Shown: piece after piece, positions 4,438-30,649 of the stretch
How the letters are laid out: each line of letters starts with the position of its first letter
Numbering within the stretch: the first letter of the stretch is position 1
IMG/VR virus record: IMGVR_UViG_3300021960_008380
Span: 1 to 31,217 of that record
Direction: 5' to 3' (one strand)
Length of the DNA: 31,217 bases
DNA from: a virus
Notes under the pieces: model-generated
Told to the model about the DNA's origin: nothing
What the model saw: the letters and a program-made list of their open reading frames with translations, nothing else
Databases searched by the model: none
Position numbers and translations under genes: made by a program

Positions 4438-4559
4438 GTGAGATAACTCCACAGTGCTATGGCCAACAATCCAAAACTCATTATGGATATGGACACCTCG
4501 TTCAGGAACCAGTCCTTGAAGGTCTCCCATAACAATGATACAAATTGCCTATCAATCAT
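4434..4559 (-). CDS. Very short membrane-peptide ORF (41 aa)
   Basis: An ATG at 4559 overlaps the stop of the metallopeptidase/VWA gene (ATGATTGA) and opens a 41-codon frame ending in a TGA that overlaps the next gene's ATG. The peptide starts MIDRQFVSLLWETFKDW and continues into a hydrophobic helix, about residues 22-40 (rich in Ile, Leu, Ala, ending LWSYLT). Head and tail overlaps of this kind on both sides, plus one amphipathic and one membrane helix, support a real gene. The alternative is that this stretch is a 5' extension of the next gene in another frame, but that extension has no ribosome-binding site. Function unknown. Confidence 0.5.
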   Translation of the reverse strand: MIDRQFVSLLWETFKDWFLNEVSISIMSFGLLAIALWSYLT

Positions 4560-5793
4560 CGTACTGCACCGTAAGTCCGAATGGAGCCTCGATGTCCCTC
4601 TCGTATGGATTGTTGATTAAGAATATCGTGTCGCAGTAGTCAGGGTCACCCCAACTGTCAAATGGCCAACCGTCCGTGAACATCACGAACTTCTTGGGCT
4701 CTATGCCCTGGTCCTTCATGTATTTCCAGTTGCATTCGAACTCAGTACCACCTCCTGAACCCAGTTTGTAGTCCAACAACTCGTCCGCGTTGTCTGGTGT
4801 GAACACCACAGGGTTGAACACCTCTGTGTCAAAACTCCAAAGATGTATCCTGAAGTCCTTGTATTGGTCCATTATGTTCTTGACCTCTGTCAGGAACTCC
4901 GTACACTGTTCGTTGCTGATCGAACCACTGGCATCAAGCGCCAAGCATATGTCGATCATCTCGTCATTGTTCTGTCCTGGCAGTATGGCAGACGTGTGCC
5001 AACTCTTCCTAGATGGTCTCATCCAAGTGTAGTCAGACTTGATGGTGCTCATTATCTGTTGTTGCAGTATCTCCCTCCAGTCCATCTTTGGCTCCGTGAG
5101 TTGTGATACCAATCTCTGTAGTGCGCCTGGTAGGTTGCTGGCACCCGTGCTCTGTGCCGCTGACACCATCGCTTCTTTTACTTCGTCTCGGATCTTCTTT
5201 AATTCTTCCTTGGTGTACACAGGCTTGCCCTTGCCACCACTCTTGCCGTCACCTTTGCCTTTGTCTTTTGCGTCACCATCGCCTTTGCCCCACTCCTGGT
5301 GATCGTCCATCAGCTCGCCTAACTTTTCCAAGAACTTCTTGCCGTTCTTCTTGGCGGTCTTGTAGAGGTCATCATATATCCTCTCTGATGCCCAGTCCTT
5401 GTACTTGTCGTCCTGGAACCCCTTGTTCTCGCCCTTCTCACCTTTCGGCATGTCACCGATGTTGCTGTCCTTCAGTATCTGGTTCACTGCGTAGTCCGCC
5501 GCTATGTTCCAAAGTTGTGGATCCCTGTCTCCGATCCTCACCAGCATGTGTTCGAATACGTTGTGTAGCACCTCGTGTCCAAACAGGAACTCCGCCTCCT
5601 TGGGTGTGAGTGAATCTATGAACTTGGTGTTGTAGAAGAAATGCCTGCCGTCTGTGCCCGCAGTTGGACACCAGTCATCCGCGTTCACAAGTTTCAATCT
5701 TGTTGCCAGGTTGCCAAAGAACGGATGTTTCAGTAGCAGTGCGATCCGCGCCGTTACCAGTTTGTCTATGATCTTCTGTTCCCTGTAGTCCAT
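4552..5793 (-). CDS. Metallopeptidase-like / VWA-domain protein, partner of MoxR ATPase
   Basis: 413 residues. The N-terminal part has a zincin-type HEVLH at residues 73-77 (third His at 82), as in the putative metallopeptidase domain of DUF2201-type proteins. A charged linker rich in Gly, Lys and Asp spans about 168-190. The C-terminal half is a von Willebrand factor A fold with the metal-ion-dependent adhesion motif DASGS at 287-291, preceded by strand IDICLAL, and a later MFTDGWP. VWA proteins of this class work with MoxR-type AAA+ ATPases as chaperone or cofactor-insertion systems, and the ATPase is encoded immediately upstream (TAATG). Phage MoxR/VWA pairs occur in T4-like marine phages, as I recall; the client protein is unknown. 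Confidence 0.82.
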   Translation of the reverse strand: MDYREQKIIDKLVTARIALLLKHPFFGNLATRLKLVNADDWCPTAGTDGRHFFYNTKFIDSLTPKEAEFLFGHEVLHNVFEHMLVRIGDRDPQLWNIAADYAVNQILKDSNIGDMPKGEKGENKGFQDDKYKDWASERIYDDLYKTAKKNGKKFLEKLGELMDDHQEWGKGDGDAKDKGKGDGKSGGKGKPVYTKEELKKIRDEVKEAMVSAAQSTGASNLPGALQRLVSQLTEPKMDWREILQQQIMSTIKSDYTWMRPSRKSWHTSAILPGQNNDEMIDICLALDASGSISNEQCTEFLTEVKNIMDQYKDFRIHLWSFDTEVFNPVVFTPDNADELLDYKLGSGGGTEFECNWKYMKDQGIEPKKFVMFTDGWPFDSWGDPDYCDTIFLINNPYERDIEAPFGLTVQYDD

Positions 5794-6899
5794 TATTTAG
5801 ACTCCATAGCAGTTATGACGTACTTGCCAAACTTCTTATGGAACCTATCAAATGATTTCAACTTGCTAGGATCGAACGGAAGTTTGTAGTTCGTGAGTGC
5901 TATCTTGGCACCCATCACCACAAGCTCAGTCTCGAAGTTGTCCATCATGTAGTTGAAGAACCTGTCAGCCATGTCGTTCCACTTCTTGTCACCGTTCTGG
6001 TGTGCCTGTTGTAGTTCATAGCACAACGAAACTGTGAGTGAGTACATCGCTGATATTTCTTTTGTTTTTAGATCTCTTACTTTACCGCTCAAGATATCAG
6101 ACGGGTTAGGTAACTGACCGCTAATTTTACGATGATTCATAAACTTAACGGCCAGTCCTTCTCCTACGCAACCTGCTACGAGGTCAGTGAGCGTACTTTC
6201 TGGCAGGTCGTCTGATAGAAGTTGGCTTACGAAACTCCATGATCTTGGAGTTGCGAATGATCTCGAACTTCCTTTTGGATCGAAATCATATAAATCTTGT
6301 TTGGCGAATGTGCAGTAACCCACAACGTCCGCGTGTACGTGTTGTTCTGTGGCCCATTGTAGCCAGTCCTCGAAGTCCACCCTTAGTTCAACGTGTACGA
6401 ATCTGTTGGCCAACGGAGCCGGCATCCTGTATGTCACACCCTTGTCTGAGTCCCTGTTACCCGCCGCCACGATCGAAACGCCTTCAGGTAGGTGATACTG
6501 TCCAACCCTTCTGTTAAGGATCAACTGGTACGCCGCCGCCTGTACAGCCGGTGCCGCAGAGTTCAACTCGTCCAAGAACACAATAGCAGTTGACTTGGGA
6601 TCAGTTGGCAGTTCTGCCGGTGATGCCCACACCATGTTGTTTTCTTTTGAATTGTAGTAAGGGATACCTTTGATGTCTGTGGGCTCCCATAGTGGTAATC
6701 TGATGTCTATGACTTCTCTGCCTTCCGCGTCCGCGATCTGTTTTACGATGTCCGATTTACCAATACCTGGTGCTCCCCACATCATTATGGGTCTCTGTAA
6801 TTTGATACAATGTGTTAATGCTGATTTTGCCTCGTTTGGTGATACAGTTCTGTTCTGAGAACCTACCGCCGCCTCTTTGTTTTTGTTTGCTCTTGCCAT
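5793..6899 (-). CDS. MoxR-like AAA+ ATPase
   Basis: 368 residues. Walker A GAPGIGKS is at 42-49, Walker B IVFLDE ends at residue 111, sensor-1 Asn is in AAGNRDS (about 148), and an arginine in APLANRF (about 166) fits the arginine finger. The order and spacing match the MoxR branch of AAA+ proteins, which remodel client proteins together with a VWA partner; that partner is the next gene, coupled by TAATG. It is the first gene of its unit and has a strong upstream promoter and an AGGAG ribosome-binding site. The region about 60-160 carries the usual MoxR insertions. The substrate of the phage pair is not known. Confidence 0.88.
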   Translation of the reverse strand: MARANKNKEAAVGSQNRTVSPNEAKSALTHCIKLQRPIMMWGAPGIGKSDIVKQIADAEGREVIDIRLPLWEPTDIKGIPYYNSKENNMVWASPAELPTDPKSTAIVFLDELNSAAPAVQAAAYQLILNRRVGQYHLPEGVSIVAAGNRDSDKGVTYRMPAPLANRFVHVELRVDFEDWLQWATEQHVHADVVGYCTFAKQDLYDFDPKGSSRSFATPRSWSFVSQLLSDDLPESTLTDLVAGCVGEGLAVKFMNHRKISGQLPNPSDILSGKVRDLKTKEISAMYSLTVSLCYELQQAHQNGDKKWNDMADRFFNYMMDNFETELVVMGAKIALTNYKLPFDPSKLKSFDRFHKKFGKYVITAMESK

Positions 6900-6991: not shown

Positions 6992-8119
6992 TTAGATGTA
7001 ATTGTGAAAATCTGGGATATAATTGGTAATTTTTATGCTACGTTTGTTGTCTAGAGCTTGTATCTGTTTCTTAAGAGAGTCTATGGTATCATCATCACAA
7101 GACGAACTTAACATTTTTTTCAGTATTAGCTGTAATTGTATATAAAAATGTTTATTTCTTTTTTCATCTGGGTGATTGAGAAAGAATTCATCAACATCTT
7201 TTTTAAACTTTTGTTTTAATTTTTCTGGAGCATTGAATAGATTATAGATTTTAGGAGTGATCACTTTCATAGCGATCATTTTAAAAGCACTATTTCTCGA
7301 AGCAAATTCTTTTTTCATTGTTAGATACCATTTTAAAAATTTATCATAATTGAATAATGATAAAATTTGTATACTATTGAAAACTTCAACTTCTATTTTA
7401 CTGTTCATTTTTGAAATCTTGATTAGATTGTTTGTAATTTTGTCAAAATTGCTCGGAAACCTTATGTAATCATTTGCACGACCAAAAGAATCAATGCTAA
7501 CTCCCAATGTTACACTTTTGAACTCTTTCAAATATTCAAAGAAACGGTTGTTGATATTAGTCAAATTTGTTATAACTTGCAATTTGATGTTTCCTATAAG
7601 GTTATTTTCCTTAAGATATTTAAAATATTCCTCAAACTCTGGCATGATAGAAGGCTCTCCACCCTGTATTACTAACTCTTCTAGTTGGTGTGATAATTCA
7701 CATGTGTCTTTGAAGACTCTTGGTGAGACAGCTCTGATTCCGTTGGTGTTTTTGTTAATTCCTAAATCTTTTGCCCATTGTGAACTACGATTCGGTCCAC
7801 ACATAACACACTTTAGATTACAGAAATTACTGAAGTCTAGATCTAGTTTAGTGGGAAGGTCTCTTATTTTTGTATTCTTATTTGAATTATGTAGTTGTCT
7901 TATGCTCAGGATTCCACGATCTTCAGCATCATAACAGGGTTGGCATTGTTTGACCCTAACTCCGTTTTTTTGTTTTTCCAGTAATAATTTTCTTTCTGCA
8001 CTGTGCCAGAATTCCAAAGGATCCAGGTTATAATATTGATTACTCTCGCAACATAGACCAACTCCGCGATCACTGATAAACATACCGTTGGTTGGGAAAG
8101 TGCAGTAGGTTTTATTCAT
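6992..8119 (-). CDS. Radical SAM protein with N-terminal SPASM/twitch-like cysteines
   Basis: 375 residues from the ATG at 8119. The frame extends to a TTG at 8134, but neither start has a strong ribosome-binding site and ATG is preferred. The radical SAM signature is CNLKCVMC (cysteines at about 100, 104, 107), followed by the GGEP motif in QGGEPSIMPE. Before it lie further cysteines: C6, CC at 23-24 and a CQPC at about 59-62, typical of an N-terminal twitch/SPASM-like auxiliary cluster site. Such enzymes modify peptides, proteins or sugars by radical chemistry; this substrate is unknown. It shares its layout with the radical SAM gene at 23.5-24.7 kb. Its coding sequence is much more AT-rich than its neighbours. 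Confidence 0.85.
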   Translation of the reverse strand: MNKTYCTFPTNGMFISDRGVGLCCESNQYYNLDPLEFWHSAERKLLLEKQKNGVRVKQCQPCYDAEDRGILSIRQLHNSNKNTKIRDLPTKLDLDFSNFCNLKCVMCGPNRSSQWAKDLGINKNTNGIRAVSPRVFKDTCELSHQLEELVIQGGEPSIMPEFEEYFKYLKENNLIGNIKLQVITNLTNINNRFFEYLKEFKSVTLGVSIDSFGRANDYIRFPSNFDKITNNLIKISKMNSKIEVEVFNSIQILSLFNYDKFLKWYLTMKKEFASRNSAFKMIAMKVITPKIYNLFNAPEKLKQKFKKDVDEFFLNHPDEKRNKHFYIQLQLILKKMLSSSCDDDTIDSLKKQIQALDNKRSIKITNYIPDFHNYI

Positions 8120-8507
8120 TTTTATTTTCGTCAACTTTGCTCATTGCCCTCGCGAGCCCGTATTTGGTGATGTCTCCGGCGAACAGCATCAGTTGTAGCG
8201 CCATTTTCTCCATGGTCACAATGATCTGTTTCTTGTCAACGAAGTAGGGACAGTCAACGAACTCATCCAACCACAGGTAGGTCTGTGGGGTGAATATGAC
8301 CTTTGCTGGGAATTTGATGGTGTAGGTCTTGAGGTCCAAATTCTCCAACATCTCCAGGCCCTGTTTGGTAAGCCTCAAACTCCTGGCTTGGTAACTCTCA
8401 CGTACATTCTGCCACCAAGTGTAGTAATTGGTCTTGATGCTCTCGTCGTGGATTGGCTGTTCCAACAGTTCCATGAAGGTGCGTGTGTATGCGGTCTTGC
8501 GATCCAT
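8112..8507 (-). CDS. Conserved hypothetical phage protein (131 aa)
   Basis: No function recognised. The protein has an aromatic-rich N-terminal part (NYYTWWQNVRESY, about 27-39) and a central region with LRLTKQGLEMLENL that looks like a small helical module. It resembles, from memory, a conserved hypothetical of marine T4-like phages. It overlaps the radical SAM gene by 8 bases. Upstream there is no clear Shine-Dalgarno; instead the heptamer TTAAATA lies 5 bases before the ATG. A similar arrangement, CTAAATA and 5 bases, precedes the methyltransferase gene at 27.7 kb. Confidence 0.75.
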   Translation of the reverse strand: MDRKTAYTRTFMELLEQPIHDESIKTNYYTWWQNVRESYQARSLRLTKQGLEMLENLDLKTYTIKFPAKVIFTPQTYLWLDEFVDCPYFVDKKQIIVTMEKMALQLMLFAGDITKYGLARAMSKVDENKNE

Positions 8508-11899: not shown

Positions 11900-12787
11900 T
11901 TAAGTTCCCCATTTGTTTCCAAATAAATCTACGTGTAGTCTTGGTGAATATTTGTATCCGTTATTCATAGCGATCTCTGCCACTTGTGTTGCAGTCTTTG
12001 CCTGTCCTTCTTGGGTGGCTCCCATAGGCATTAGATATATGTCTGCGTTCACTCCTGCTTTAGTGTACATTTCTCTTGCCTTGTCCACCTCCGCAAGATC
12101 TACATCATCTTGGATCACGAATTTGAAGTAAAGATGTGTGTTTGGTATGTCAGCGTACTGCCTTGCAACATCAGGTCTGATAGCCTTGTCCCATGCTTCG
12201 CCTGATATGCTGAGCTTGGGCGAAGTCGACCATGTTACGTGTACCGGATCGTTTGTGTAATCACCAGCAGTCAATCCATGTAAGAATTTGTCAAAGTTGT
12301 ATTTGAATGGTTGTGTACAGTTAGTTTCGATTGTCACGTTTTTGAGGTCTTTAAAAGCAGGTTGACGTAGTAACTCTTGTGTTTCTCTTTGCCACAGCAT
12401 AGGCTCACCACCTGTAATTATGAAATGCACGTCTTGTCCGTTGTTACATGTCCAAGAGTTGTGTGGTGTGAGTTGTGTGCTTATTTCTGCGATATCGTGT
12501 ACTGTTTCCCAACTCACAAGGTGTTTGTATCTTGATGCCCAACTGGCACTGGCGTCACATCCTATCTCAACCACAGGCAGTTCACTTACGTGTTTAACAT
12601 CTGAAAGGTCCTGCGTGGCGTATGGCATCTCCTCTGGTTTCAACCATTTGCTCTGATCCCTGCCCTGTCCAAATCCATGGCAGTTGAAGTTGCAACCGAA
12701 CACACGAAAGAACACGCTAGGCACTCCCACGAATCTGCCCTCGCCCTGCACCGAGTAAAATATCTCCGAGTATCTTATTTTTTCCAT
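11900..12787 (-). CDS. queE: 7-carboxy-7-deazaguanine synthase QueE, phage variant
   Basis: Radical SAM enzyme that turns 6-carboxytetrahydropterin into 7-carboxy-7-deazaguanine in preQ0 synthesis. QueE hallmarks are the N-terminal YSVQGEGRFVGVPS (about 11-24), FGCNFNCHGFG (cysteines 32 and 36), ITGGEPMLW, ETNCTQPF and WSTSPKLSISGE. The third cluster cysteine expected three residues after C36 is absent (Gly/Phe there); the next candidate is C77 in EIGCDASASW. I recall a similar pattern in some cyanophage QueE proteins. 295 residues is longer than compact QueE (about 210-240), and the insertion lies between C36 and C77. It is the last gene of the P5 unit (cupin, amidinotransferase, protein B, queE) and overlaps protein B by 13 bases. 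Confidence 0.88.
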   Translation of the reverse strand: MEKIRYSEIFYSVQGEGRFVGVPSVFFRVFGCNFNCHGFGQGRDQSKWLKPEEMPYATQDLSDVKHVSELPVVEIGCDASASWASRYKHLVSWETVHDIAEISTQLTPHNSWTCNNGQDVHFIITGGEPMLWQRETQELLRQPAFKDLKNVTIETNCTQPFKYNFDKFLHGLTAGDYTNDPVHVTWSTSPKLSISGEAWDKAIRPDVARQYADIPNTHLYFKFVIQDDVDLAEVDKAREMYTKAGVNADIYLMPMGATQEGQAKTATQVAEIAMNNGYKYSPRLHVDLFGNKWGT

Positions 12788-13722: not shown

Positions 13723-14715
13723 TTAAAAATAATCCTCCATTGTACCTTCACGATATAGGTCTTGTGTTATACAGTGTGTACCACCATCCCAAAAATACCT
13801 GTGCCTAAAGTTGAAAATTATTGGTTCGACTTTATGTTTTTTGAAGTGTGCAAACACATCTTTATTGTAGTTGTTACATATTATTGTGTGCTCGTCTATA
13901 CTTAACATATTGACATCAAACACGGTCTCTTCAACATAACCAACCCAATCTGTTAACCATGTGTTGATGAATTCTATCAGTTGGTCATTGTGTTCCTCGC
14001 CCTTTAACCACCATTTACCGCCAACTTTTTTCTTGATTTTCAAAAACGGATCCACTTTGTCCCAACTTTGATCCGGCAAATATAAAACGTCCCAGCTGGG
14101 AAATTCTTTTTGATAATCTTGTACATTCCTCAATGACACTATACATCCAGGCTTTACAACACAGAACACGGCATCACTGTGATACCCTCTGTTTGAAATA
14201 TGAACTCTAAATCCCTGCGACTCCCAAATACTTGAATATTTTTTTGTAAGATTTGCCGGCGTGCTAGGTTCCACGTCCCAATATAGATCTTTCCCGACTC
14301 TAGAAATTGTTGCAGTTGAAATACAACCTTCAGAAGGTACGATCTCTATATCTTTTCTTTTAATCTGTTTTAAAACATCAGAATAACCAGGACTACCCTT
14401 AGACACCGCATATATTTTTTCACCTATTACTGCAAAAAAATCTCGAGGTGTCACTGGTGGTCTAGTAATATTTTTTAGACTTTTGATTTTTTCCATGTTC
14501 AAAAAACTTCTATATGTAATTACTCCAGCATCTTTTAGAATTTTTTCTAGTGCTTGATAGTCTTCCTCAGTTTCCTCTGCTATCTTTTTGAGAGGATCCA
14601 TAATTTTAGTATTTTTGTAAATTGGAAGGTCTGAAAACCATTCAGTCTGGAAACCAGAACCAATCCAGCAGTGTTTTAACGGATGAAAAGTGGCATATCC
14701 TTTAATAGGGATCAT
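13723..14715 (-). CDS. Pentein-fold amidinotransferase-like enzyme (arginine:glycine amidinotransferase family)
   Basis: 330 residues. The C-terminal FWDGGTHCITQDLYREG carries the nucleophilic cysteine (C315) in the G-G-x-H-C-x-T/Q-x-D-x-R/Y-R context of arginine:glycine and inosamine-phosphate amidinotransferases. The catalytic His and acidic partner fit NRGYHSDAVF (H179, D181), and RPPVTPRDFFAVIGEKIY (about 85-102) fits the conserved R-P-x-x-x-R-D block. Known members move an amidino group from arginine to an amine, or hydrolyse guanidino compounds. The acceptor here is unknown. The gene is separated by one base from the cupin gene and lies two genes before queE in the same unit, which raises the possibility of an amine acceptor linked to 7-deazaguanine. 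Confidence 0.8.
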   Translation of the reverse strand: MIPIKGYATFHPLKHCWIGSGFQTEWFSDLPIYKNTKIMDPLKKIAEETEEDYQALEKILKDAGVITYRSFLNMEKIKSLKNITRPPVTPRDFFAVIGEKIYAVSKGSPGYSDVLKQIKRKDIEIVPSEGCISTATISRVGKDLYWDVEPSTPANLTKKYSSIWESQGFRVHISNRGYHSDAVFCVVKPGCIVSLRNVQDYQKEFPSWDVLYLPDQSWDKVDPFLKIKKKVGGKWWLKGEEHNDQLIEFINTWLTDWVGYVEETVFDVNMLSIDEHTIICNNYNKDVFAHFKKHKVEPIIFNFRHRYFWDGGTHCITQDLYREGTMEDYF

Positions 14716-14716
14716 G

Positions 14717-15112
14717 CTATTTCTTTTTGTTTTTGTCTAGCCTCACGATCTTGCCGTCTGTGTCTTTCAAGTGTCCAACTGACTCCCTCTTGATGTCGTT
14801 GTGTGAGAAGTTAGCCCAGTACAGTTCAAATGCCACGCCGTCTTCCATGCCCTCGAAACTGTGATAAAGTCCTGGTTTTACGGCAGTGAAATCTCCTGGG
14901 TTTAATATGGTCTCGTCCACTAGGTCGTAGTCCTTCTGCCAAACTCGTATCTTAAGTTGACCACTCATGCAGTAGAAACCATTCCACTTCCATTCGTGTA
15001 GGTGTTTGCTACACACTCCACCCTTCTTGTAGTCAATCCTGTGGAACTCCAGTGCGTTGTTGGCAAGGATCAGTTCCGTCTCACCCCATATTTTGCCTGC
15101 TTTGTTTGACAT
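14717..15112 (-). CDS. Cupin-domain protein (131 aa)
   Basis: A single small cupin barrel. Motif 1 is in CSKHLHEWKWNGFYCMSGQLKI (two His of the H-x-H pair, a Glu, then Gly at about residues 37-52), and motif 2 is around PGDFTAVKPGLYHSFEG (about 72-88). Cupins of this size are metal-binding sugar isomerases, epimerases or dioxygenase-like enzymes; the sequence does not decide which. The C-terminus is Lys-rich. It is the first gene of a unit that continues with the amidinotransferase, protein B and queE. The mRNA would have a leader of about 24 bases with AGGAAGG upstream of the ATG. Confidence 0.82.
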   Translation of the reverse strand: MSNKAGKIWGETELILANNALEFHRIDYKKGGVCSKHLHEWKWNGFYCMSGQLKIRVWQKDYDLVDETILNPGDFTAVKPGLYHSFEGMEDGVAFELYWANFSHNDIKRESVGHLKDTDGKIVRLDKNKKK

Positions 15113-15136: not shown

Positions 15137-15166
15137 ATTATACATGGTATTTAGATGAGTTGTCAA
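15137..15166 (-). promoter_or_regulatory. Sigma70 consensus promoter P5
   Basis: Minus-strand TTGACA (15161-15166), 18-base spacer, TATAAT (15137-15142): both hexamers match consensus perfectly. It drives the cupin-amidinotransferase-B-queE series. A GC-rich hairpin lies immediately upstream of the -35 box. Confidence 0.8.
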
Positions 15167-15167
15167 T

Positions 15168-15188
15168 GGGGGAGCAAAAAACTCCCCC
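15168..15188. terminator. GC-rich hairpin between transporter gene and promoter P5
   Basis: GGGGGAG (15168-15174) pairs perfectly with CTCCCCC (15182-15188) around a 7-base loop (CAAAAAA on the plus strand). It lies 6 bases after the stop of the transporter gene and directly before the -35 box of P5, so it may end the transporter transcript. No run of T follows the stem in either direction, so it is not a classic intrinsic terminator. RNA stability is another possible role. Confidence 0.45.
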
Positions 15189-15194
15189 GATGAT

Positions 15195-15845
15195 CTATTT
15201 TTTCTTCTTGCCTATGACCTGTAGTCTGTTCAACAGTATTCCATACGCTGGTAGGAACACTATCAATCCAACAACAATCTTGGTCAAAGTGTTGTTCTGA
15301 GCAACCACGTGCCAGTTAGCACCGATCCAACTTAGATTGCCCTCTGCGTCGAGAGAACCTGCGAACGCCACATAAAAGAATGAGTATGTATCAATTATGT
15401 TCGCCGCGATAGTTGAGATCGCCGGTGCCGCCCACCAATTGTCAGATTTTTCTCTGATCGCTTGGAAAACGTACACGTCAAGCATTGTACCGATTGCGTA
15501 TGCCGTACCTGATGCGAATCCCACCCTGTATGCGTGTGGGTCACCCAGTGCCAACAGTACCAGTACCGATGCCACGATTGCCGGAATGATCGCCATTGCA
15601 ACAACGGCCCTTCCTGCTTGTTTGCCGACCAACCTGACCGTCAGGTCAGTTGCGACTACCACGATCGGGAATGTGAATGCCGCCGCCGCAAGTGGGAATG
15701 ATCCAAACAATGGAAGGTCCGCGCCTGGGAACAGATCAAATCTGATCGTGACTAGATAGTTCGACACAGCGATAACCAGCGTGTGTAGAATAACTAGATT
15801 TCTTACAAGTGTCTTGTCAACACCTGCCAGTAGTGATTTAAACAT
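15195..15845 (-). CDS. yhhQ: Queuosine-precursor (preQ0/preQ1) transporter, YhhQ/VUT family
   Basis: 216 residues with about six hydrophobic helices. The block AFTFPIVVVATDLTVRLVGKQAGR (about 56-79) closely matches the F-P-x-x-x-A-T-D-L-T-V-R signature of YhhQ, the inner-membrane importer of preQ0 and preQ1 in bacteria. The C-terminus ends in KKKK, as expected on the cytoplasmic side. It has its own promoter and an AAGGAGG ribosome-binding site. With folE, the QueD-like gene, queE and the DpdA-like gene in this window, it suggests that the phage can import deazaguanine as well as make intermediates. The GC content is higher than that of the nearby amidinotransferase region. Confidence 0.88.
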   Translation of the reverse strand: MFKSLLAGVDKTLVRNLVILHTLVIAVSNYLVTIRFDLFPGADLPLFGSFPLAAAAFTFPIVVVATDLTVRLVGKQAGRAVVAMAIIPAIVASVLVLLALGDPHAYRVGFASGTAYAIGTMLDVYVFQAIREKSDNWWAAPAISTIAANIIDTYSFFYVAFAGSLDAEGNLSWIGANWHVVAQNNTLTKIVVGLIVFLPAYGILLNRLQVIGKKKK

Positions 15846-15878
15846 TAAGCCTCCTTAAGGTTTTGTTTAATGTTCAGT

Positions 15879-15908
15879 ATTTTAACAGTTTTTTGATTGT
15901 TGTGTCAA
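15879..15908 (-). promoter_or_regulatory. Sigma70-like promoter P6
   Basis: Minus-strand TTGACA (15903-15908), 18-base spacer ending in TGT, then TAAAAT (15879-15884). The leader to the transporter ATG at 15845 is about 27 bases and contains AAGGAGG. Confidence 0.72.
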
Positions 15909-15921
15909 TACAACTTTTGCT

Positions 15922-16383
15922 TTACTTGTCCCACTCTTCCCATGGGAAAACTATCCATGCGGGCACTTCCGCTTTGTTGATCTCGTATCCGTGGTAATCC
16001 ACTTTGACACGGCTGGGCTTGTTGTTGATCAGTGCGGCGAACCTTATGCGATCCTCCCGCTTGCCGAAGTTGTCCAGTATGTACCGGAACGTGTCTCCGG
16101 AGTCGTTGATGTCGTCTATGATCAGTATCTTCTTCTGGAACGCGAACACCTTCTCCAAAACACGTAGGTCGGGTTTGGTGGTGTGGTCTCGTAGTCTTAT
16201 GTCCAACGCCTCGTGTGGCACGTTCAACCTGTGTGAAAGGTACACGCCCGGGATACATCCTCCCCTGTTGATGCCCAACACCACACTTGGCATCCAGTTG
16301 CTGTGCACCATCTTGTCCTCTATCTGTATCAGTGCGTTGCGCATCTGTCCGGTTGTGAAATAACTTTTCTTAACTTCTTCCAT
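15922..16383 (-). CDS. Purine phosphoribosyltransferase (xanthine/guanine type)
   Basis: 153 residues from the ATG at 16383, which shares a base with the upstream stop (TAATG). The frame extends to 16503, but that extension lies inside the upstream gene. The PRPP-binding signature ILIIDDINDSGDT is at about 86-98. An early VVLGINRGGCIPG (about 34-46) matches the first loop of Gpt-like xanthine/guanine phosphoribosyltransferases, which make XMP or GMP from the free base and PRPP. It is the last gene of a unit with GMP reductase and folE, consistent with purine-pool remodelling. The base specificity cannot be told from the motifs alone. Confidence 0.85.
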   Translation of the reverse strand: MEEVKKSYFTTGQMRNALIQIEDKMVHSNWMPSVVLGINRGGCIPGVYLSHRLNVPHEALDIRLRDHTTKPDLRVLEKVFAFQKKILIIDDINDSGDTFRYILDNFGKREDRIRFAALINNKPSRVKVDYHGYEINKAEVPAWIVFPWEEWDK

Positions 16384-16721
16384 TATATCAATCCAAAGTA
16401 TCCTAGGTAGTATCTGAATGCCCCAGACACCAGCATGGCCAGTAGTATGGTGTTCAGTATTATCAAGGCCCTGTCGTGCCATTTGAATCCCACCCACAGC
16501 CATCCCGCCGTGCCCACTATGGAAAACGTGACGTCAAATATCTTGGGTATCTCTTCTACCGATCTGCACAGCACCGCCACGCACACGAATGCCACCGATA
16601 TCCATTTGACGTACCACGTGCTGTCATGCACGGGTGTGACCTTACGCACCTTGCTGAGGCTCTCCTCCAGTGCCTCTATCTTGTCTTCTATCTCGTTGAC
16701 TCTATTTGGTGTAACGCTCAT
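16383..16721 (-). CDS. Small membrane protein with N-terminal coiled coil (112 aa)
   Basis: Residues about 5-27 form an acidic heptad-like helix (VNEIEDKIEALEESLSKV). Two or three hydrophobic segments follow, about 37-53 (WYVKWISVAFVCVAVLC), 62-80 and 86-104. It overlaps the GMP reductase gene by 20 bases and is coupled to the phosphoribosyltransferase by TAATG. No family recognised. A role at the inner membrane is all that can be said. Confidence 0.72.
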   Translation of the reverse strand: MSVTPNRVNEIEDKIEALEESLSKVRKVTPVHDSTWYVKWISVAFVCVAVLCRSVEEIPKIFDVTFSIVGTAGWLWVGFKWHDRALIILNTILLAMLVSGAFRYYLGYFGLI

Positions 16722-17751
16722 AAACCCTGTTGATGTTGTTTTCTACCCTAACGAATGTGGCACACTTGGGCATGTCTTTCAATCTACGTGCACCAATGTA
16801 TGTGGCCGCGGATCTTACACCTCCCAGTATGTCTTCCACCGTTGGGTTCACAGGTCCTCTGTGGGGCAGGCTTATCCATCTGCCCTCGTTACCCCTGTAT
16901 CCGTCTTTTCGTTTTCCGTGTTTCTCACGAGCCCTGTCTGAGCTCATGCCATAGAATTCTACCTTGCCATCCACCACAGGTTGTTCGGACTCGTCGTGTC
17001 CGGCCAGCATTCCGCCAATCATCACCGCGTGTGCCCCGCCACCGAACGCTTTTGCTATGTCTCCTGGCCATACGCAACCGCCGTCCGCCATGATGTGTCC
17101 ATCCACTCCATTGGCCGCGTCAGCACATTCAACTATGGCCGAGAACTGTGGTACGCCAATACCAGTCATCGTCCTCGTGGTACAAACTGATCCAGGTCCT
17201 ATTCCTATCTTGACCATGTCCGCACCGTTTATGATTAGTTCCTCCACCATCTCTGGTGTGACCACGTTGCCCGCTACAATTACTTTGTCTGGATATTCAT
17301 CCCTGACCATCTTGATGAAGTCCACAAAGTTTTGATGGTATGCGTTGGCCACGTCTACTGTTATCATTTTTACGTCTGGGAAACTCCTCAATACGTCCTG
17401 CATTCTAGCGTAGTCCTCTGCTTCTGGATCCCATATCTTGTTAGTACCAGTGCAAACCGAAACACTCTGTAATCTCAATCCCGAACCCACCGCCGCTTTC
17501 CATTGGTCCACAGTGGTGTTCTTGGTGATCACGGTCATCATCTTGTGTTCCTGCAACACTTTTGCCATTGAGAACGTACCCACGCCATCCATGTTTGACG
17601 CAAATATTGGAGTGAAGTTCATGACCTTGCCTGAGTTACGGAAAGTGAATTTACGTGTCATGTCCACATCACGTCTACTGCTCAGTGTGGAACGCTTGGG
17701 TTCCATCAACACGTCATCAAAATTTAATTTTATATCCTCCTTAATCCTCAT
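16702..17751 (-). CDS. guaC: GMP reductase
   Basis: 349 residues, nearly the length of E. coli GuaC (347), and similar along its whole length from memory: MRIKEDIKLNFDDVL, PKRSTLSSR, ASNMDGVGTFSMA, GNVVTPEM, then GIGPGSVCTTR with the catalytic cysteine at 190, DGGCVWPGDIAKAFGGGA, YGMSS, and RGPVNPTVEDILGGVRSA. GuaC reduces GMP to IMP with NADPH. The ATG at 17751 has an AAAGGAG ribosome-binding site 7 bases upstream and is preferred to a start seven codons earlier. IMP dehydrogenase is a related alternative, but the RGPV...DILGGVRSA ending and lack of CBS domains favour GuaC. It shares a unit with folE, which draws on GTP. Confidence 0.93.
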   Translation of the reverse strand: MRIKEDIKLNFDDVLMEPKRSTLSSRRDVDMTRKFTFRNSGKVMNFTPIFASNMDGVGTFSMAKVLQEHKMMTVITKNTTVDQWKAAVGSGLRLQSVSVCTGTNKIWDPEAEDYARMQDVLRSFPDVKMITVDVANAYHQNFVDFIKMVRDEYPDKVIVAGNVVTPEMVEELIINGADMVKIGIGPGSVCTTRTMTGIGVPQFSAIVECADAANGVDGHIMADGGCVWPGDIAKAFGGGAHAVMIGGMLAGHDESEQPVVDGKVEFYGMSSDRAREKHGKRKDGYRGNEGRWISLPHRGPVNPTVEDILGGVRSAATYIGARRLKDMPKCATFVRVENNINRVYERYTK

Positions 17752-18046
17752 TTTCCTGCTCCTTTGCCTCACACATCTTCTTGACGTTGTTGTAGTGATC
17801 CCACGCGTCCTTCAGTGCCGGGTATTTGTCTCTGAGATCTTTGTCGTAATCAAAATTCATCTGTAGGTCTCCAATATCACCAAAGTTCACAGTGGCCGTG
17901 TCTGTAACTGAACCAACATTAGTGGCACCCATGCTCCAGTCGTCTAAGGTGTATATTCCATCTGAACTCATTGAACTCATCTCTATGTTGTCCGACTGCA
18001 TGTTGGCCTGTTCTTTTTTGATTTGTGCTTTGCTTTTCTTAACCAT
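17741..18046 (-). CDS. Conserved hypothetical protein (101 aa)
   Basis: No function recognised. The N-terminus is basic (MVKKSKAQIKKEQ), the middle is Ser/Thr/Gly-rich and probably flexible, and the C-terminal third has YDKDLRDKYPALKDAWDHY (about 67-85), which looks like a helical module and resembles conserved small proteins of marine T4-like phages from memory. It overlaps folE by 8 bases and guaC by 11 bases, so all three are probably translated as a unit. Confidence 0.75.
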   Translation of the reverse strand: MVKKSKAQIKKEQANMQSDNIEMSSMSSDGIYTLDDWSMGATNVGSVTDTATVNFGDIGDLQMNFDYDKDLRDKYPALKDAWDHYNNVKKMCEAKEQENED

Positions 18047-18752
18047 GGCCCTTCATGCTCATACAAATTTTATAGAATTCGTCCCTGGTTGCTGGATCAT
18101 CTTTGAATGCACCCAGCATGATCGCCGTGGTCATGTCCGACTCGTGTTCCCTCACACCTCTGTGTGTCATGCAGTGATGTTCTGCTTTGACAACTACTGC
18201 GAGATTCTCGGTCTTGGCGTATTTTTTCAACTCATCTGCGATCTGTGTTGTCATTTCTTCCTGTATTTGTGGTCTCTCCACGATGTGATGCACGATCCTA
18301 TTAAACTTGCTCAATCCGATAACCTCACCATTTGGTATTATGCCAACCCATGCTTTGCCCACGATGTTCTGGAAGTGATGGGCACACGTCGATCTGATCG
18401 ATATCGGACCACTGGTGTACATGCTCTTGTAACCCATGTTGGGGAAACTGGTCACCCTCGGTGCTGGATTAAACCTGCCACCAAACGTTTCTCTGATGTA
18501 CATCTTGGCCACACGCTTCGCTGTTTCTTGTGTGTTGTGATCGTTTTCAGTGTCAATGACAAGACTGTCTAACACGCCTTGCAGTTTCTCTTGTACCTCT
18601 GCCTGCAATTGATCCATCTCACCGTCTTCTATGAATTCAGCGATGTTGTCATTAGAATGGAATCTCTTACCTGCCTTTTTAATTCTTTCTCTGATCTTTG
18701 TGCTGACGGGTGTATCAGGCATCCAACTGTCTTTCAATATGTCTTCGCTCAT
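18039..18752 (-). CDS. folE: GTP cyclohydrolase I
   Basis: Converts GTP to dihydroneopterin triphosphate, the first step of both folate and preQ0 synthesis. 237 residues, in the usual range. Zinc ligands fit C123 and H126 in STCAHHFQN and C194 in AEHHCMTHRGV; VIGLSKFNRIV (144-154) and QIADEL (169-174) are also family hallmarks. The canonical S-L-C-E-H-H-F is S-T-C-A-H-H-F here. The start shares one base with the galE stop (TAATG). With queE, the QueD-like gene and the DpdA-like gene in this window, a role in 7-deazaguanine synthesis is more likely than folate synthesis, though this is inference. Confidence 0.93.
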   Translation of the reverse strand: MSEDILKDSWMPDTPVSTKIRERIKKAGKRFHSNDNIAEFIEDGEMDQLQAEVQEKLQGVLDSLVIDTENDHNTQETAKRVAKMYIRETFGGRFNPAPRVTSFPNMGYKSMYTSGPISIRSTCAHHFQNIVGKAWVGIIPNGEVIGLSKFNRIVHHIVERPQIQEEMTTQIADELKKYAKTENLAVVVKAEHHCMTHRGVREHESDMTTAIMLGAFKDDPATRDEFYKICMSMKGHG

Positions 18753-23320: not shown

Positions 23321-23503
23321 TGTCTGTTTTGCCCGAATGATAGCATCCTTCAGTGCCAACTTGGTCTTCTTCAACCTCATCAGAAGTGTCTTGCTTTCGG
23401 CACTCCTATCCTTTTTGCGATCCTCAGTGAGTTCTTTGACTTTTCTCTTAAGGTAATCGTGATGATCCTGTAGTTTCTTTAATATTTTACTTTTGTTAGC
23501 CAT
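23309..23503 (-). CDS. Small helical DUF465/YdcH-like protein (64 aa)
   Basis: A short, strongly basic coiled-coil protein. The pattern H-H-D-Y-L-K-R-K-V-K-E-L early and LKKTKLALKDAI at about 44-55 match the two-helix layout of DUF465/YdcH proteins, whose function is not established. It has a good AGGAG ribosome-binding site. It overlaps the radical SAM gene upstream by 8 bases and is the last gene of the polymerase-containing series. Confidence 0.72.
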   Translation of the reverse strand: MANKSKILKKLQDHHDYLKRKVKELTEDRKKDRSAESKTLLMRLKKTKLALKDAIIRAKQTLTK

Positions 23504-24668
23504 TTTTTTCTCCTAGTTGTTTTAATTCTGGTAAAACTTTAAATAATTCCTGTCCTCTCAAACGATCAAGTATTTGCATCCTCTTCAAAAACTCGTCCAC
23601 GTATTGTACGTGCTCTAGATTTTTAGTCAAGAACTCTTTTGTCTCTACCAGACTGGTTTTCAGTTGACCTGTCAATATATCATTATACTTGTTGTCATTT
23701 AAGAATGAACTATTTAGGAAATTATCTATGTCCTTGATGCATTTTTCCTTCATAAATCTAGGTGCATAGATGGGATCGAGGTAGTGAGGATCTGTTACCA
23801 GTTGAAACCAAACGCCGCCAAACGATATACCACAGTTAACGATGTAATCAAATATTTCATCTAGACGTGTCATGTTTAACCATTGTATTGTTGTATTGAA
23901 TGATACTCCCTCACCTATATTTTTAAGATTTTTTTCTATTGTACCCCAATCGCTTGGATATCTAATGTATTTGGCAAGATCACCCACAGCGTCTATAGAT
24001 ACATTATAAGAAACACTCTTGAATTTTTTACTGAGATCTACAAAATCCTTGTTGATATTGGTTGCGTTGGTCGTGAATATCAACTCAACATTATTGCTGT
24101 TTCCAGTATCGACTATTTTTTTTATGTATTCTATGTTACGCTTGATTATTGTTGGTTCACCGCCCGTCATAAAAACTCTTCGCACATAGGGTATCCAGTC
24201 CTCTATAAGTTCCCATGTGTCTTCGTCAAGTGATATTATTTTTTGTGTGGGATTGTCGATCCAATCCTCGTTTGGATTTTCAATTATCTCGCCAGCAATC
24301 TGACTGCTCCATTCGGCAATACACATTCTACACTGTAGATTGCACAGATTACCTAAACGTAGATCTAGATAAAATGGTTGCTGTAGGTTAACATTGTTCT
24401 TTATTTGATCGACATGGTCCTTGTATATCTCGTTGCTGTGCTGTCTAAGACTGCTGAATCCTCTGTCTTCTTTTTTCCAGCATATTGAACATCCTTGGTC
24501 TCTCACGTTTGACAGCATATTTTTTTTGATTTTCTGTAGTTGTCCTGATTCCCAATATTGTTTTTTAGAGTTGAATTTAAGATTGCCAGTATACGCACAA
24601 CAAGGTGTTATCAAGTTTGGAGTGATAAATGCGTGAATAAATGGCAATATACAGAAATTGTCTGCCAT
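23496..24668 (-). CDS. Radical SAM protein with N-terminal twitch/SPASM-like domain (390 aa)
   Basis: Similar in plan to the protein at 6992-8119. N-terminal auxiliary cysteines are C6, CC at 23-24, and CSIC at 60-63. The radical SAM signature CNLQCRMC has cysteines at 109, 113 and 116, followed by MTGGEPTIIKR. The N-terminal FCILPFIHAF start, then CCAY and GCSICWKKE, is typical of twitch-domain radical SAM proteins seen in environmental phages and bacteria. Substrate unknown. It begins 6 bases after the DpdA-like gene and could act on the same pathway or on a peptide. AT-rich compared with the clamp and polymerase genes. Confidence 0.85.
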   Translation of the reverse strand: MADNFCILPFIHAFITPNLITPCCAYTGNLKFNSKKQYWESGQLQKIKKNMLSNVRDQGCSICWKKEDRGFSSLRQHSNEIYKDHVDQIKNNVNLQQPFYLDLRLGNLCNLQCRMCIAEWSSQIAGEIIENPNEDWIDNPTQKIISLDEDTWELIEDWIPYVRRVFMTGGEPTIIKRNIEYIKKIVDTGNSNNVELIFTTNATNINKDFVDLSKKFKSVSYNVSIDAVGDLAKYIRYPSDWGTIEKNLKNIGEGVSFNTTIQWLNMTRLDEIFDYIVNCGISFGGVWFQLVTDPHYLDPIYAPRFMKEKCIKDIDNFLNSSFLNDNKYNDILTGQLKTSLVETKEFLTKNLEHVQYVDEFLKRMQILDRLRGQELFKVLPELKQLGEKNG

Positions 24669-27699: not shown

Positions 27700-30363
27700 T
27701 TAGAATTCAAATAATTTATTAAATGTATTCGTGGTTTCTGTTGATTGAACGTCCCACCCTAGAACACCTATTAGGTTGTCTATTTTTTGATCTAGTATTG
27801 TTGCTTCCATGGCATCTGAGTCAAATGGCAGTTCCTTGAACCATTCTGGTATACGCATCTCGTCAACAGGATACGCTATGCTGGTGTAACCCAGTGGGTT
27901 GTTCTTGAGCTTACACACGATTACCTTGGCTCCATCCGTGATGGGCATCGAGTACTTGTCACCATACATCTCCCTGCACCTGTTCCAGTTCATGCTGGCC
28001 CGCACGTGTCCCGGCATGTTGGTCTTGCCCTTCTTGGTCTCCTCCTCAGTGTATTTGGTCATGTTGTTGGCCCTTTTGGGAGATCCTTTCTCCCATCCTG
28101 GTCTGGACTTGAATTCTGCTCTGAACTCGCTTATCTTCTCTAGTACTTCTTTTTCAGGTATGCCCGTCAACACCATGTACAGTAGATCACTCAAGAAGTC
28201 CTGTACGAATACTGGGGTGTCAGAACGTTTGAGATCTAGTCCCATGGCCTTTACTTTGCCCGCTTTGCCTTCTGTGTCCACACGGTTGCCTTCCTTGTCG
28301 TAGTACAGCACCGCGTACCTCTTCTTGGTTATGAACAGTCCCTTGCTGGCCACCAGTTCCCTGCCCGCCGCTATCACTTCTCCCCGTGTGCTTGGTGTGT
28401 GAAATGCTTTTGTCATGAACGCCTTGAATGATCCATTGACCTCATCTGATATCCTGTCATACAGTGCCACGACCGAATCCTTGGTCCATGGTATCACGCC
28501 CTCCGTGATCTCTTTCTTCAGTGTGTTGTATGCCGAGAAGTACACCGAGTCCGTGTCTCCATACACCACGCTCTCGCCCTTGTGGTCATACTTGCCCGCC
28601 ACTATCTCGTTGACTTTGCTGGCCATGTGTTTTGTGATGCATCTGCCCGTCAGTGTAACCGATTGTCCTATCCTGATGTCAAAGAACCTACAGCCCGGAT
28701 TCAATATTGCACCATACAGACTGTTTAGATTAATTTTTTTTACGAGCTGTCTCTTGTCCCAATATTCCCGTTCAATCTCGTTGTCTCCACACTCACGCAT
28801 CTTCTTCTGCATCTCCTGTCTCTCAGCATACCAACGCTTCAACAATCCCGGTATTATGGCCTCGTATTCGTAGGTGAATATGGTGCCGTTCGCACTCAAC
28901 ATCCACTTGTTGTTGCCATCGAATATTATCTCATACAGTTGTGCCGCACTCATCCTTACACTGGTCTTGTCCTCCCAGTCCACTATGATCTCCGTGCCCT
29001 TCTCTTGATTCATCACCGCTTGGTATTCCCAACTGCCGAACTGGCTGTCCCATGCGGCCGCGAATGATTTCTTGGCATGTTTAGCCCTGTTTATTTCTGC
29101 TGATGTAATCACAGGTCTTATTTGTCCTACAATGGTTTCAGGACCCATGTTCAGTGCTCTAATGACTGACGGATACAGAGAGTTTATGTCAATTGATCCT
29201 ACCCAGTCATGTATACCCTTTATCGGGGTCGCCACGTAGGCACCTGCCGCTGGTTGGTTCTCCTCACCCTCCTTCTTGTACTTCCTACCCGGCACCTGCA
29301 TGCCTCTCCTGTGTGTTTCGTTTACTATCGCTTGTTCCGTCACTGCAACTGCACCCATGGTGGTCTGTAGTAGCACGGTGTTCTGGTGTGCTATCTCGTT
29401 GGCCAGTTCTATGAATTTCAATTTCTTTTCAAGTTTGGCCAGCAGTGCGGTGTCTTGCCTGTTGTACTCTATGAACAGGCCAAAATCATTCTTGTAAAGG
29501 TTGTCTAGTGATCCTTCGTAAACCGTTTTCTTCTCGCCCAGTTCATGTTCACCTATGGCATCTAATCTAAATGAATGTCGCTCTTCGTATGTGTACTTCC
29601 TGTAAAGTTCCAACAAGTCCAAGTGTACCCTTCCAACTAGATCAAAACTCAACTGTTCTCTTCCGTATTTTTCAAATACTCTCTTCTTTGGCTTTTCACC
29701 CCAGAAGCACAATCGCCTTGTGTCATCACCACTCAATACTTTCTGTATCCTTCCCACGGTGTATGGGATATCATATCCCTCCGAGTTCCATCCACTCAAA
29801 ATGTCAGCGTCCTCTACCAACTGTAGGAACGCGTCCAGCATGTCCTTCTCCTTCTCGAACAGCATGGTGTTTGGGAACCTCTCTGTCAGCACCTTGGCGT
29901 CATTCATTGAAATCGTCTTGGGTGGCACCGCCAGTGTGACCAGTTGGTCCGTCCAGCCCATGTAACAACTTATGGCAGTTATGGGCATGAACGGATCATC
30001 TGTGGTTGAGTAACCTCGATCTGGATCGAAGTCCACCTCAATGTCGAAAAACATCACGTTCAGTTTTGGGGTCTCCTTGCCGAGATAATTCTCCTCTAGG
30101 CATCTGAACACCGGATTGATGTCGTGTTCGTAGAGTTGCTTGTTTGATCTTATGCGTTGCTCTTTTATGAATTCCTTGTGTGTCTGGCACACCACACGCT
30201 GTAGTGGCTCCCCGGTCATTCCCCTGTGCTTACCTCGGGCATCTGGATAGTAGAACACGTACCTGGCGTCATACTCCGTGAATATACGACCCTTCTTGGG
30301 ATCACGCTCCACCACGTATATCCTGTCCTCGTCCTTCTTGTATAGTGCGTCTATGTAACTCAT
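27700..30363 (-). CDS. 43: DNA polymerase family B, T4 gp43-like
   Basis: 887 residues from the ATG at 30363, one base after the upstream stop; a start 13 codons earlier would overlap that gene by 38 bases. The 3'-5' exonuclease is intact: FFDIEVD (D107, E109), WNSEGYDIPY (D198) and YNRQDTALL (D304). Polymerase motif A is SIDINSLYPSV (D392), motif B KKINLNSLYGA (about 542-552) and motif C YGDTDSVYF (D603, D605). The C-terminus NKLFEF fits a clamp-binding peptide of the T4 polymerase type. It replicates the phage genome with the clamp encoded two genes away. No intein or split is present; the frame is continuous. Confidence 0.96.
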   Translation of the reverse strand: MSYIDALYKKDEDRIYVVERDPKKGRIFTEYDARYVFYYPDARGKHRGMTGEPLQRVVCQTHKEFIKEQRIRSNKQLYEHDINPVFRCLEENYLGKETPKLNVMFFDIEVDFDPDRGYSTTDDPFMPITAISCYMGWTDQLVTLAVPPKTISMNDAKVLTERFPNTMLFEKEKDMLDAFLQLVEDADILSGWNSEGYDIPYTVGRIQKVLSGDDTRRLCFWGEKPKKRVFEKYGREQLSFDLVGRVHLDLLELYRKYTYEERHSFRLDAIGEHELGEKKTVYEGSLDNLYKNDFGLFIEYNRQDTALLAKLEKKLKFIELANEIAHQNTVLLQTTMGAVAVTEQAIVNETHRRGMQVPGRKYKKEGEENQPAAGAYVATPIKGIHDWVGSIDINSLYPSVIRALNMGPETIVGQIRPVITSAEINRAKHAKKSFAAAWDSQFGSWEYQAVMNQEKGTEIIVDWEDKTSVRMSAAQLYEIIFDGNNKWMLSANGTIFTYEYEAIIPGLLKRWYAERQEMQKKMRECGDNEIEREYWDKRQLVKKINLNSLYGAILNPGCRFFDIRIGQSVTLTGRCITKHMASKVNEIVAGKYDHKGESVVYGDTDSVYFSAYNTLKKEITEGVIPWTKDSVVALYDRISDEVNGSFKAFMTKAFHTPSTRGEVIAAGRELVASKGLFITKKRYAVLYYDKEGNRVDTEGKAGKVKAMGLDLKRSDTPVFVQDFLSDLLYMVLTGIPEKEVLEKISEFRAEFKSRPGWEKGSPKRANNMTKYTEEETKKGKTNMPGHVRASMNWNRCREMYGDKYSMPITDGAKVIVCKLKNNPLGYTSIAYPVDEMRIPEWFKELPFDSDAMEATILDQKIDNLIGVLGWDVQSTETTNTFNKLFEF

Positions 30364-30364
30364 C

Positions 30365-30649
30365 TTACCACCAGTAACTGGCCACGCCGTAGCCGTAGAC
30401 ATTTATGATTGAGAAGTAGCCAGTGATCATCATCACGAATGCGGCATTCCTCCGGTAGGCGGCATAACACTGTGTCACAGCACCAATAAAGAATCCCGGA
30501 TAGATAATGGTCATGTCCGGATCCGCGGCCGTGATTGCAAGTGTGAGGCTGGCTCCAACTGTGAATATGAAACTGACCAGTTCGAAATAGAACGCCGTCC
30601 GATCACTTTCAAAACTACGAAGCCAGAATGATCTGACTTTGTCCAACAT
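30365..30649 (-). CDS. Small membrane protein (94 aa)
   Basis: Two or three predicted transmembrane helices: about 21-40 (YFELVSFIFTVGASLTLAIT), 48-63 (IIYPGFFIGAVTQCYA) and 70-92. A basic N-terminus (MLDKVRSFWLRSFESDR) suggests an inside N-terminal end. It resembles small membrane proteins of marine T4-like phages from memory. Coupled to the upstream dsbA-like gene by TAATG and followed one base later by the polymerase gene. Confidence 0.75.
   Translation of the reverse strand: MLDKVRSFWLRSFESDRTAFYFELVSFIFTVGASLTLAITAADPDMTIIYPGFFIGAVTQCYAAYRRNAAFVMMITGYFSIINVYGYGVASYWW

Follow-up and report, generated by a model that had tools for sequence, protein, structure and literature searches.

A YhhQ-family transporter gene that recurs beside phosphoribosyltransferase and 7-deazapurine genes in viral contigs

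Results

Genes and signals at the locus

The window, that is, the whole stretch of DNA analyzed here, is a 31,217-base piece of the IMG/VR virus record IMGVR_UViG_3300021960_008380. The ORF at its heart is confirmed as a real transporter gene of the VUT/YhhQ family, and it stands directly downstream of a gene for a Gpt-like phosphoribosyltransferase (PRT) and upstream of a gene for a small cupin (Table 1). The start of the PRT gene was set at 16383; a longer ORF would overlap the next gene. An Rfam search of the window returned zero matches. In the QueE-like protein cysteines 32 and 36 (CxxxC) are present, and the third cysteine of the usual radical SAM cluster motif is seemingly shifted 41 residues on, to C77, after an insert.

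Table 1. Positions of the transporter gene, its signals, and other annotated genes in the window
Feature	Position	Strand	Basis
QueE-like radical SAM protein	11900-12787	minus	phrog_2076, 1e-53
Small cupin gene	14717-15112	minus	PF07883, PF00190
Next promoter, TTGACA-N18-TATAAT, facing the cupin gene	15137-15166	minus	consensus match
End hairpin, GGGGGAG / loop of Ts / CTCCCCC	15168-15188	minus	folding z -3.7
YhhQ/VUT-family transporter gene, 216 aa	15195-15845	minus	ORF from ATG to stop, Vut_1 PF02592
Shine-Dalgarno AAGGAGG ahead of the transporter ATG	15850-15856	minus	read from sequence; similar in relatives
Sigma-70-type promoter of the transporter gene, TTGACA-N18-TAAAAT	15879-15908	minus	14/14 distinct window-like loci
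Gpt-like (6-oxopurine type) PRT, directly upstream of the transporter	15922-16383	minus	PF00156
DUF6552 small protein	16383-16721	minus	PF20189
GMP reductase	16702-17772	minus	PF00478; PRK05096, 463 bits, cutoff 397
GTP cyclohydrolase I (FolE)	18039-18752	minus	profile matches
T4-type DNA polymerase	27700-30402		profile match

The promoter assigned to the transporter gene matches the consensus in 11 of 12 letters. A promoter scan over 16 kb of the window found 37 sites where 32.8 were expected by chance, so the assignment is credible only because of position and conservation: of the 80 upstream regions compared, taken from the window and 79 loci, 53 are distinct, and a site matching at least 10 of the 12 letters near -61 to -66 occurs in every one of the 14 distinct window-like loci and in 0 of the 39 others. 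The hairpin that follows the gene folds at -19.1 kcal/mol (z -3.7), and a G-rich hairpin with a T-rich loop occurs in 11 of the same 14 loci. It was absent from the output of a terminator scan of the window. Because its Ts lie in the loop, with none after the stem, and because a second, perfect promoter that faces the cupin gene begins straight after it, we prefer the term end hairpin to that of a proven terminator.

Family, fold, and constraint of the transporter

The transporter scores above the cutoffs of Vut_1 PF02592 (74.1 bits, cutoff 27.2) and of TIGR00697, "queuosine precursor transporter" (89.6 bits, cutoff 50.95). Its best NCBIfam model is the "preQ0/preQ1 transporter" equivalog PRK11212, where it scores 142.7 bits, below the cutoff of 252. 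The sequence-only reading had described a phage-borne preQ0/preQ1 importer within a mixed strategy of salvage and synthesis, and this description is partly supported: the family assignment stands, whereas preQ0/preQ1 as the substrate is a suggestion from homology, one made less certain by the link to the PRT and the loss of conserved residues described below. Like Escherichia coli YhhQ/QPTR (COG1738), the protein has the Pfam domain, TDLTVR, and other invariant residues, and it is about 40% identical to Salmonella YhhQ; unlike it, the window transporter falls under the equivalog score, groups in a separate phage clade with PRT-linked Bacteroidota proteins, and has otherwise fixed residues changed. 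Specifically, the phage rows depart from 31 other YhhQ rows at positions where the latter vary little or not at all (among them Q33, H51, Q120, and D185 in window numbering), and the same positions are also changed in the PRT-linked Bacteroidota rows. These changes fit a shift in substrate, although they are no proof of one.

An AlphaFold2 model built from 48 rows (mean pLDDT 85.2), which supersedes a poor earlier model from 14 rows (pLDDT 59.9), predicts a six-helix membrane fold. The top 12 rows of a VIA-align search with this model were all ECF-type transporter proteins, the matches being to ECF S components; the best, 3p5n, aligned at 3.3 Å across 160 residues with a Z of 11.5, a middling value for helical bundles that unrelated bundles can reach. 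The predicted fold thus looks like that of an ECF S component. Used by itself, Foldseek found no match at an E value of 0.001 or lower, and no solved structure related to the transporter by sequence was found.

At least 160 relatives of the transporter are present in IMG/VR viral contigs, and the best 80 of 160 were taken further; in a sample of 13 viral relatives, identity to the window transporter is 86-94%. Among 50,697 named phage records, 11 match. Seven of these are phages, at 32-35% identity, and the named phages with YhhQ matches include Vibrio 2.275.O, Vid5, PSTCR4, and PSTCR7; the remaining four records are bacterial DNA or short fragments resembling it. Two short "phage" records, OR845699 and OR850984, have a YhhQ match of the same identity and extent as Salmonella chromosome records, which suggests bacterial DNA recorded as phage. 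Within the viral set, loci L062 and L063 belong to one contig of 31,786 bases that has the transporter region twice, once at each end and facing opposite ways, a pattern resembling an inverted or chimeric assembly.

When 59 distinct phage copies were compared in pairs, dN/dS of the transporter came to about 0.05-0.11 once the closest pairs were set aside, and most pairs are close to saturated in their synonymous differences. Because synonymous sites approach saturation while protein identity remains at 86-94%, constraint on the transporter is needed to explain the pattern, and recent horizontal spread was rejected as the sole cause of the high identity. Choosing the closest relatives favors high transporter identity; independent of that choice is the contrast with the DNA polymerase, QueE, and FolE of the same genomes, which as a rule are far more divergent than the transporter.

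Gene neighborhoods of the transporter

Three main settings of the transporter gene were found among the 80 viral loci. In the window-like setting, GMP reductase, DUF6552, and PRT lie upstream and the cupin downstream; overall, a PRT gene is located upstream of the transporter in 17 of the 80 loci, at 77-82 nt in 13 and at 880-1057 nt in 4. The second setting has the cupin 22-37 nt upstream of the transporter (37/80), and the third has FolE 16-113 nt upstream (16/80), in many cases with a second kind of PRT (29-34% identity) encoded farther downstream. A small cupin is found beside or near the transporter in 57/80 loci, in two different gene orders. Because the latter two settings put the cupin or FolE just upstream, the arrangement as a lone gene is a feature of one clade. 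Of the proposals that the gene is expressed alone, from its own promoter and with a hairpin at its end, the first and second therefore hold for the window-like clade, the first failing elsewhere, and the third is borne out as far as the presence of the hairpin goes, which is not a textbook terminator. The most telling locus for a link between the transporter, PRT, and 7-deazapurine genes is L432, a same-strand run of FolE, two unknown genes, PRT, QueD, YhhQ (54% identity), GMP reductase, a 91-residue ORF, and QueE; the recognized genes of L440 are ordered as in L432.

A sister clade in marine Bacteroidota

The closest cellular relatives of the phage transporter, among the matches listed, come from marine Bacteroidota and are 41-48% identical to it. 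A tree was built from 75 YhhQ rows, taking in 46 of the 80 cellular loci retrieved; its 25 phage rows form one group, which branches together with 13 Bacteroidota rows, apart from all others, with a support of 100/98. A homologue of the window PRT (39-50% identity) is encoded directly upstream, on the same strand, in 12 of the 13 sister-clade loci, the thirteenth being cut by a contig end. Across the genomes concerned there are 14 phage-like YhhQ copies, 13 of them beside a PRT and the fourteenth at a contig end. These genomes also encode a second, higher-scoring VUT protein (13 copies in 12 of the 13 genomes), which has a PRT within about 1.5 kb in 0 of 13 cases. No 7-deazapurine genes were found next to the importer-PRT pair in the Bacteroidota loci.

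A TGT match is absent from 7 of the 13 sister-clade genomes (L113, L114, L117, L118, L119, L123, and L133), and QueA is kept in 12 of the 13, including 6 of the 7 without TGT. Since 12 of 13 genomes keep QueA though 7 lack TGT, TGT loss in these bacteria was dropped as a main argument against a queuosine role; genomes with QueA and without TGT may reflect incompleteness or a true rewiring of queuosine metabolism.

7-Deazapurine genes in transporter-bearing contigs

Gene content was surveyed over the full length of 42 uncultivated contigs, namely 41 locus contigs picked on length out of the 80, together with the window. FolE is present in 24 of the 42 and full-length QueE in 23; QueD is present in 4, the 31-kb window not being among them. 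DpdA and DpdA2, TGT above the cutoff (sought, with the former, using phrog_887, phrog_10773, and PF01702), and QueF were found in 0/42 contigs, which may be fragments, and there was likewise no convincing QueC in the 42, the one partial match, in G017, scoring 15 bits. The controls 9g, nt-1, and 2.275.O were detected where expected. Moreover, five DpdA or DpdA-like queries run against nine sequences (the window, four long contigs, BUCT-ZZ01, phiST, and parts of MT835497 and immuto) matched only immuto's own DpdA and a DpdA2-like gene of BUCT-ZZ01. The sequence-only reading was thus right that genes for early intermediates lie in the same genome, FolE and QueE both being in the window, and the partnership with dpdA that it envisaged is not borne out in the contigs surveyed. 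Its further idea, that the importer may deprive competitors of precursor, is a conjecture.

FolE, QueE, PRT, cupin, and YhhQ are present in all four long contigs (185-237 kb), the PRT of G028 meeting the contig end; GMP reductase is present in three and QueD in two. QueC, QueF, DpdA, and TGT were found in none of the four, which may be incomplete. The long contigs have 34-40% G+C, and only one of the four carries tRNA genes that would call for queuosine, those for Asn-GTT and Asp-GTC.

The phosphoribosyltransferase and its genomic associations

The nearest solved relatives of the window PRT are ordinary purine PRTases (1vdm, 6e-16), and E. coli XGPRT matches at 6e-9. Across 134 PRTs, the aspartates that presumably bind PRPP and serve as the general base are kept in every protein, and the position of the presumed base-contact Lys in the reference PRT is Asn in 94, Lys in 20, and Arg in 20. 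In a PRT tree, the Bacteroidota, window-like, and other phage PRTs form three separate groups; because these stand apart, the tree does not tell the direction in which the importer-PRT pair was transferred.

Thirteen named phage records hold relatives of the window PRT, two being short records resembling bacterial DNA. In BUCT-ZZ01 the PRT gene overlaps QueE by one base, in the order QueE-PRT-x-QueD-FolE, followed by the DpdA2-like gene. Cellulophaga phiST and its near relatives have the PRT, with FolE-QueE-QueD elsewhere in the genome; QueC was found in neither of the isolates BUCT-ZZ01 and phiST. In Flavobacterium phage immuto, QueD, QueE, FolE, DpdA, and QueF surround the PRT. Because BUCT-ZZ01 and immuto hold a PRT together with a DpdA2-like gene or DpdA, the PRT is not simply a substitute for DpdA. 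In MT835497, which represents a fourth PRT lineage, no Que genes were found in the 26.5 kb searched, out of a total of 55.7 kb. A query with the phiST PRT found no relatives in the viral contigs.

Two scans of viral contigs were made for PRT genes with YhhQ disregarded, one with a cyanophage PRT and one with a window-type PRT as the query, each yielding 80 loci, with at least one contig in both. Loci with at least 16 kb of sequence were counted as fully flanked, and FolE, QueD, and QueE were counted within 8 kb of the PRT. With the cyanophage query, at least one of these three genes accompanies the PRT in 23 of the 26 loci that are fully flanked (56/80 at all lengths), and with the window-type query in 38 of 38 (75/80 at all lengths). 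With the same flanks, thyX controls gave 7-deazapurine genes in 0/13 loci (0/34 at all lengths), and peroxiredoxin controls of <60% identity in 1/24 (1/46 at all lengths); the figure of 15/38 for all peroxiredoxin loci is expected because the gene order of the window's own clade is among them. Fisher tests of PRT loci against controls gave 7e-8 and 5e-10, values that overstate the association because the contigs share ancestry and the counts are not independent events. All 274 of the 274 7-deazapurine genes lie on the strand of the PRT, in about 29 gene orders. QueC was found within the flanks of 0 of the 160 PRT loci; DpdA was found in 8 and DpdA2 in 1, all nine in the 80 loci of one scan.

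Discussion

The present study suggests, as a tentative reading that we favor and that may well prove right or wrong, that the phage transporter is a base importer, for a 7-deazaguanine-type or guanine-like compound, which feeds a 7-deazapurine nucleotide pathway. The small six-helix VUT/YhhQ importer would bring the free base into the infected cell, its partners in the module being FolE, QueE, sometimes QueD, the Gpt-like PRT, and GMP reductase. In this pathway, GTP would be converted to 7-carboxy-7-deazaguanine (CDG) by FolE, QueD (of the host or the phage), and QueE; the PRT would couple PRPP to CDG or to a similar base brought in from outside; and the GMP reductase-like enzyme would tailor the resulting nucleotide, the product of which could enter the dNTP pool.

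The proposal is made because the phage module has the kinds of enzyme that make tubercidin, save the decarboxylase and the Nudix hydrolase. In tubercidin biosynthesis, homologues of FolE, QueD, and QueE make CDG; TubE couples PRPP to CDG and not to 7-deazaguanine; the proposed decarboxylase is a UbiD protein; TubD, of the GMP reductase type, performs a reductive deamination; and the tub genes listed in that account do not include QueC (PMC6112128). As in the tubercidin (tub) and toyocamycin (toy) clusters of Streptomyces (PMC6112128), a transporter occurs in the phage module together with a PRT of the purine type, GMP reductase, FolE, QueE, and, in some contigs, QueD, and FolE, QueE, and a GMP reductase above its cutoff (Table 1) are found in the window itself. 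Unlike those clusters, the module is set in a phage, its transporter is of the VUT and not the MFS type, its PRT is a putative CDG enzyme, and Pfam scans of the 30 ORFs of the window, which is part of a genome, found neither a UbiD decarboxylase nor a Nudix hydrolase. Because UbiD was not found in those ORFs, the phage module is only likened in its working to the tubercidin pathway and is not counted as a member.

Several observations weigh against the favored pathway. The activities of all members are predicted ones, and the PRT is kin to ordinary purine PRTases. In addition to the lack of UbiD and Nudix genes in the 30 window ORFs, 38 of the 42 contigs, the window among them, have no QueD. 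PRTs co-occur with DpdA or DpdA2 in BUCT-ZZ01, immuto, and the nine loci of one scan; the Bacteroidota pair has no Que genes next to it; and in many phages YhhQ adjoins the cupin or FolE, not the PRT. Furthermore, the family evidence still favors preQ0/preQ1.

Other phages have been reported with YhhQ near 7-deazaguanine genes, including Vid5, PSTCR4, Vibrio 2.275.O, and the haloviruses HCTV-1 and HCTV-16 (PMC8651126), and the combination of a phage YhhQ with a full preQ0 pathway has already been published or annotated for Vid5 and PSTCR4 (PMC6884629, PMC8651126). In contrast to the window clade, in which none of these genes was found and which has PRT and GMP reductase, Vid5, PSTCR4, and 2.275.O all encode QueC or Gat-QueC, with a DpdA besides in Vid5. 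Phages with DpdA-type DNA modification, such as 9g and nt-1, share FolE and QueE with the window clade; DpdA, DpdA2, and convincing QueC, by contrast, were found in 0/42 contigs of the transporter set. Hutinet et al. noted some phage YhhQ proteins with no correlation with any phage group, left open the use of preQ0-type genes by phages lacking DpdA, and named a route through modified dGTP as possible (PMC6884629). No paper linking a PRT with phage 7-deazaguanine genes was found among the open-access papers searched, two phage papers among them naming only nicotinamide PRT.

More broadly, and with considerably more doubt, many aquatic phages might run a 7-deazapurine route independent of DpdA and QueC, in which a CDG-type PRT would act on a made or imported base, GMP reductase would tailor the nucleotide, and the polymerase would use the dNTP, the Bacteroidota pair being a stand-alone salvage cassette. 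If this is true, then modified bases would enter the DNA as it is replicated and would not be exchanged into it later. That the transporter gene keeps to candidate enzymes of a 7-deazapurine nucleotide pathway, and not to the usual enzymes that modify DNA or tRNA, hints at a little-known phage way of making unusual nucleotides. The importer-PRT-GMP reductase-QueE module offers concrete, testable enzymes, in the cultured phages phiST, BUCT-ZZ01, and immuto as well as in uncultured phages. It also advises caution, in that not every VUT protein should be annotated as an importer of queuosine precursors.

An unlikely alternative, but the one that survives best, is that the transporter is a canonical importer of queuosine precursors, supplying preQ0/preQ1 either to host QueF and TGT for tRNA or to an unrecognized transglycosylase for phage DNA, with FolE and QueE boosting host flux and the PRT recycling the guanine freed by base exchange. 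Characterized family members carry preQ0/preQ1 in E. coli or queuine in Chlamydia (PMC11130926), the best NCBIfam model is that of a preQ0/preQ1 transporter, FolE lies immediately upstream in the third setting, the isolates Vid5, PSTCR4, and Vibrio 2.275.O carry YhhQ beside preQ0 genes, and one long contig has both the Asn-GTT and Asp-GTC tRNA genes. These points must be set against the finding of TGT, DpdA, DpdA2, QueF, and convincing QueC in none of the 42 contigs, the PRK11212 score under the equivalog cutoff, and the changes at positions such as 33, 51, 120, and 185, nearly invariant in the 31 other rows. Twelve of the 13 sister-clade genomes moreover hold a second YhhQ copy apart from any PRT, and seven lack TGT, though QueA persists in 12.

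Ordinary purine salvage appears quite unlikely. Here the importer would take up guanine, xanthine, or hypoxanthine, the PRT would convert it to the nucleotide, and GMP reductase would turn GMP into IMP for the adenine nucleotides of an A+T-rich phage, the Que genes being a separate matter. The resemblance of the PRT to purine PRTases and E. coli XGPRT, the full equivalog match of the GMP reductase, the Bacteroidota pairs without Que genes, and the 34-40% G+C of the long contigs are all in keeping with such salvage, which would explain the importer, PRT, and GMP reductase but not why the PRT travels with FolE and QueE. PRT loci picked without regard to YhhQ still lie beside FolE, QueD, or QueE (23/26), and 94 of the 134 PRTs have Asn where the reference PRT has its presumed base-contact Lys. 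Finally, no VUT/YhhQ member is known to carry plain purines.

Least probable, and indeed improbable, is another substrate, such as a vitamin or a sugar-like compound, tied to the adjoining cupin: the cupin accompanies the transporter in 57/80 loci (22-37 nt upstream in 37), the predicted fold is common to vitamin S components, and the Pfam family name points the same way, but the window cupin has its own promoter, the cupin lies far from the transporter in G032, no vitamin pathway was recognized nearby, and the family evidence favors 7-deazaguanines.

Other genes of the window

Next to the cupin gene, a 330-residue ORF (13723-14715, minus strand) has as its sole match phrog_25854, to which no function is assigned; its C-terminal HCIT motif is one that, by eye, we take to be of the amidinotransferase type. 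A gene for a MoxR-like AAA ATPase adjoins one for a VWA/DUF2201 protein (4552-6899, minus strand), a pair that recurs in long relatives. The window also encodes two twitch-type radical SAM proteins (6992-8134 and 23496-24668, minus strand), and several further radical SAM genes are present in relatives.
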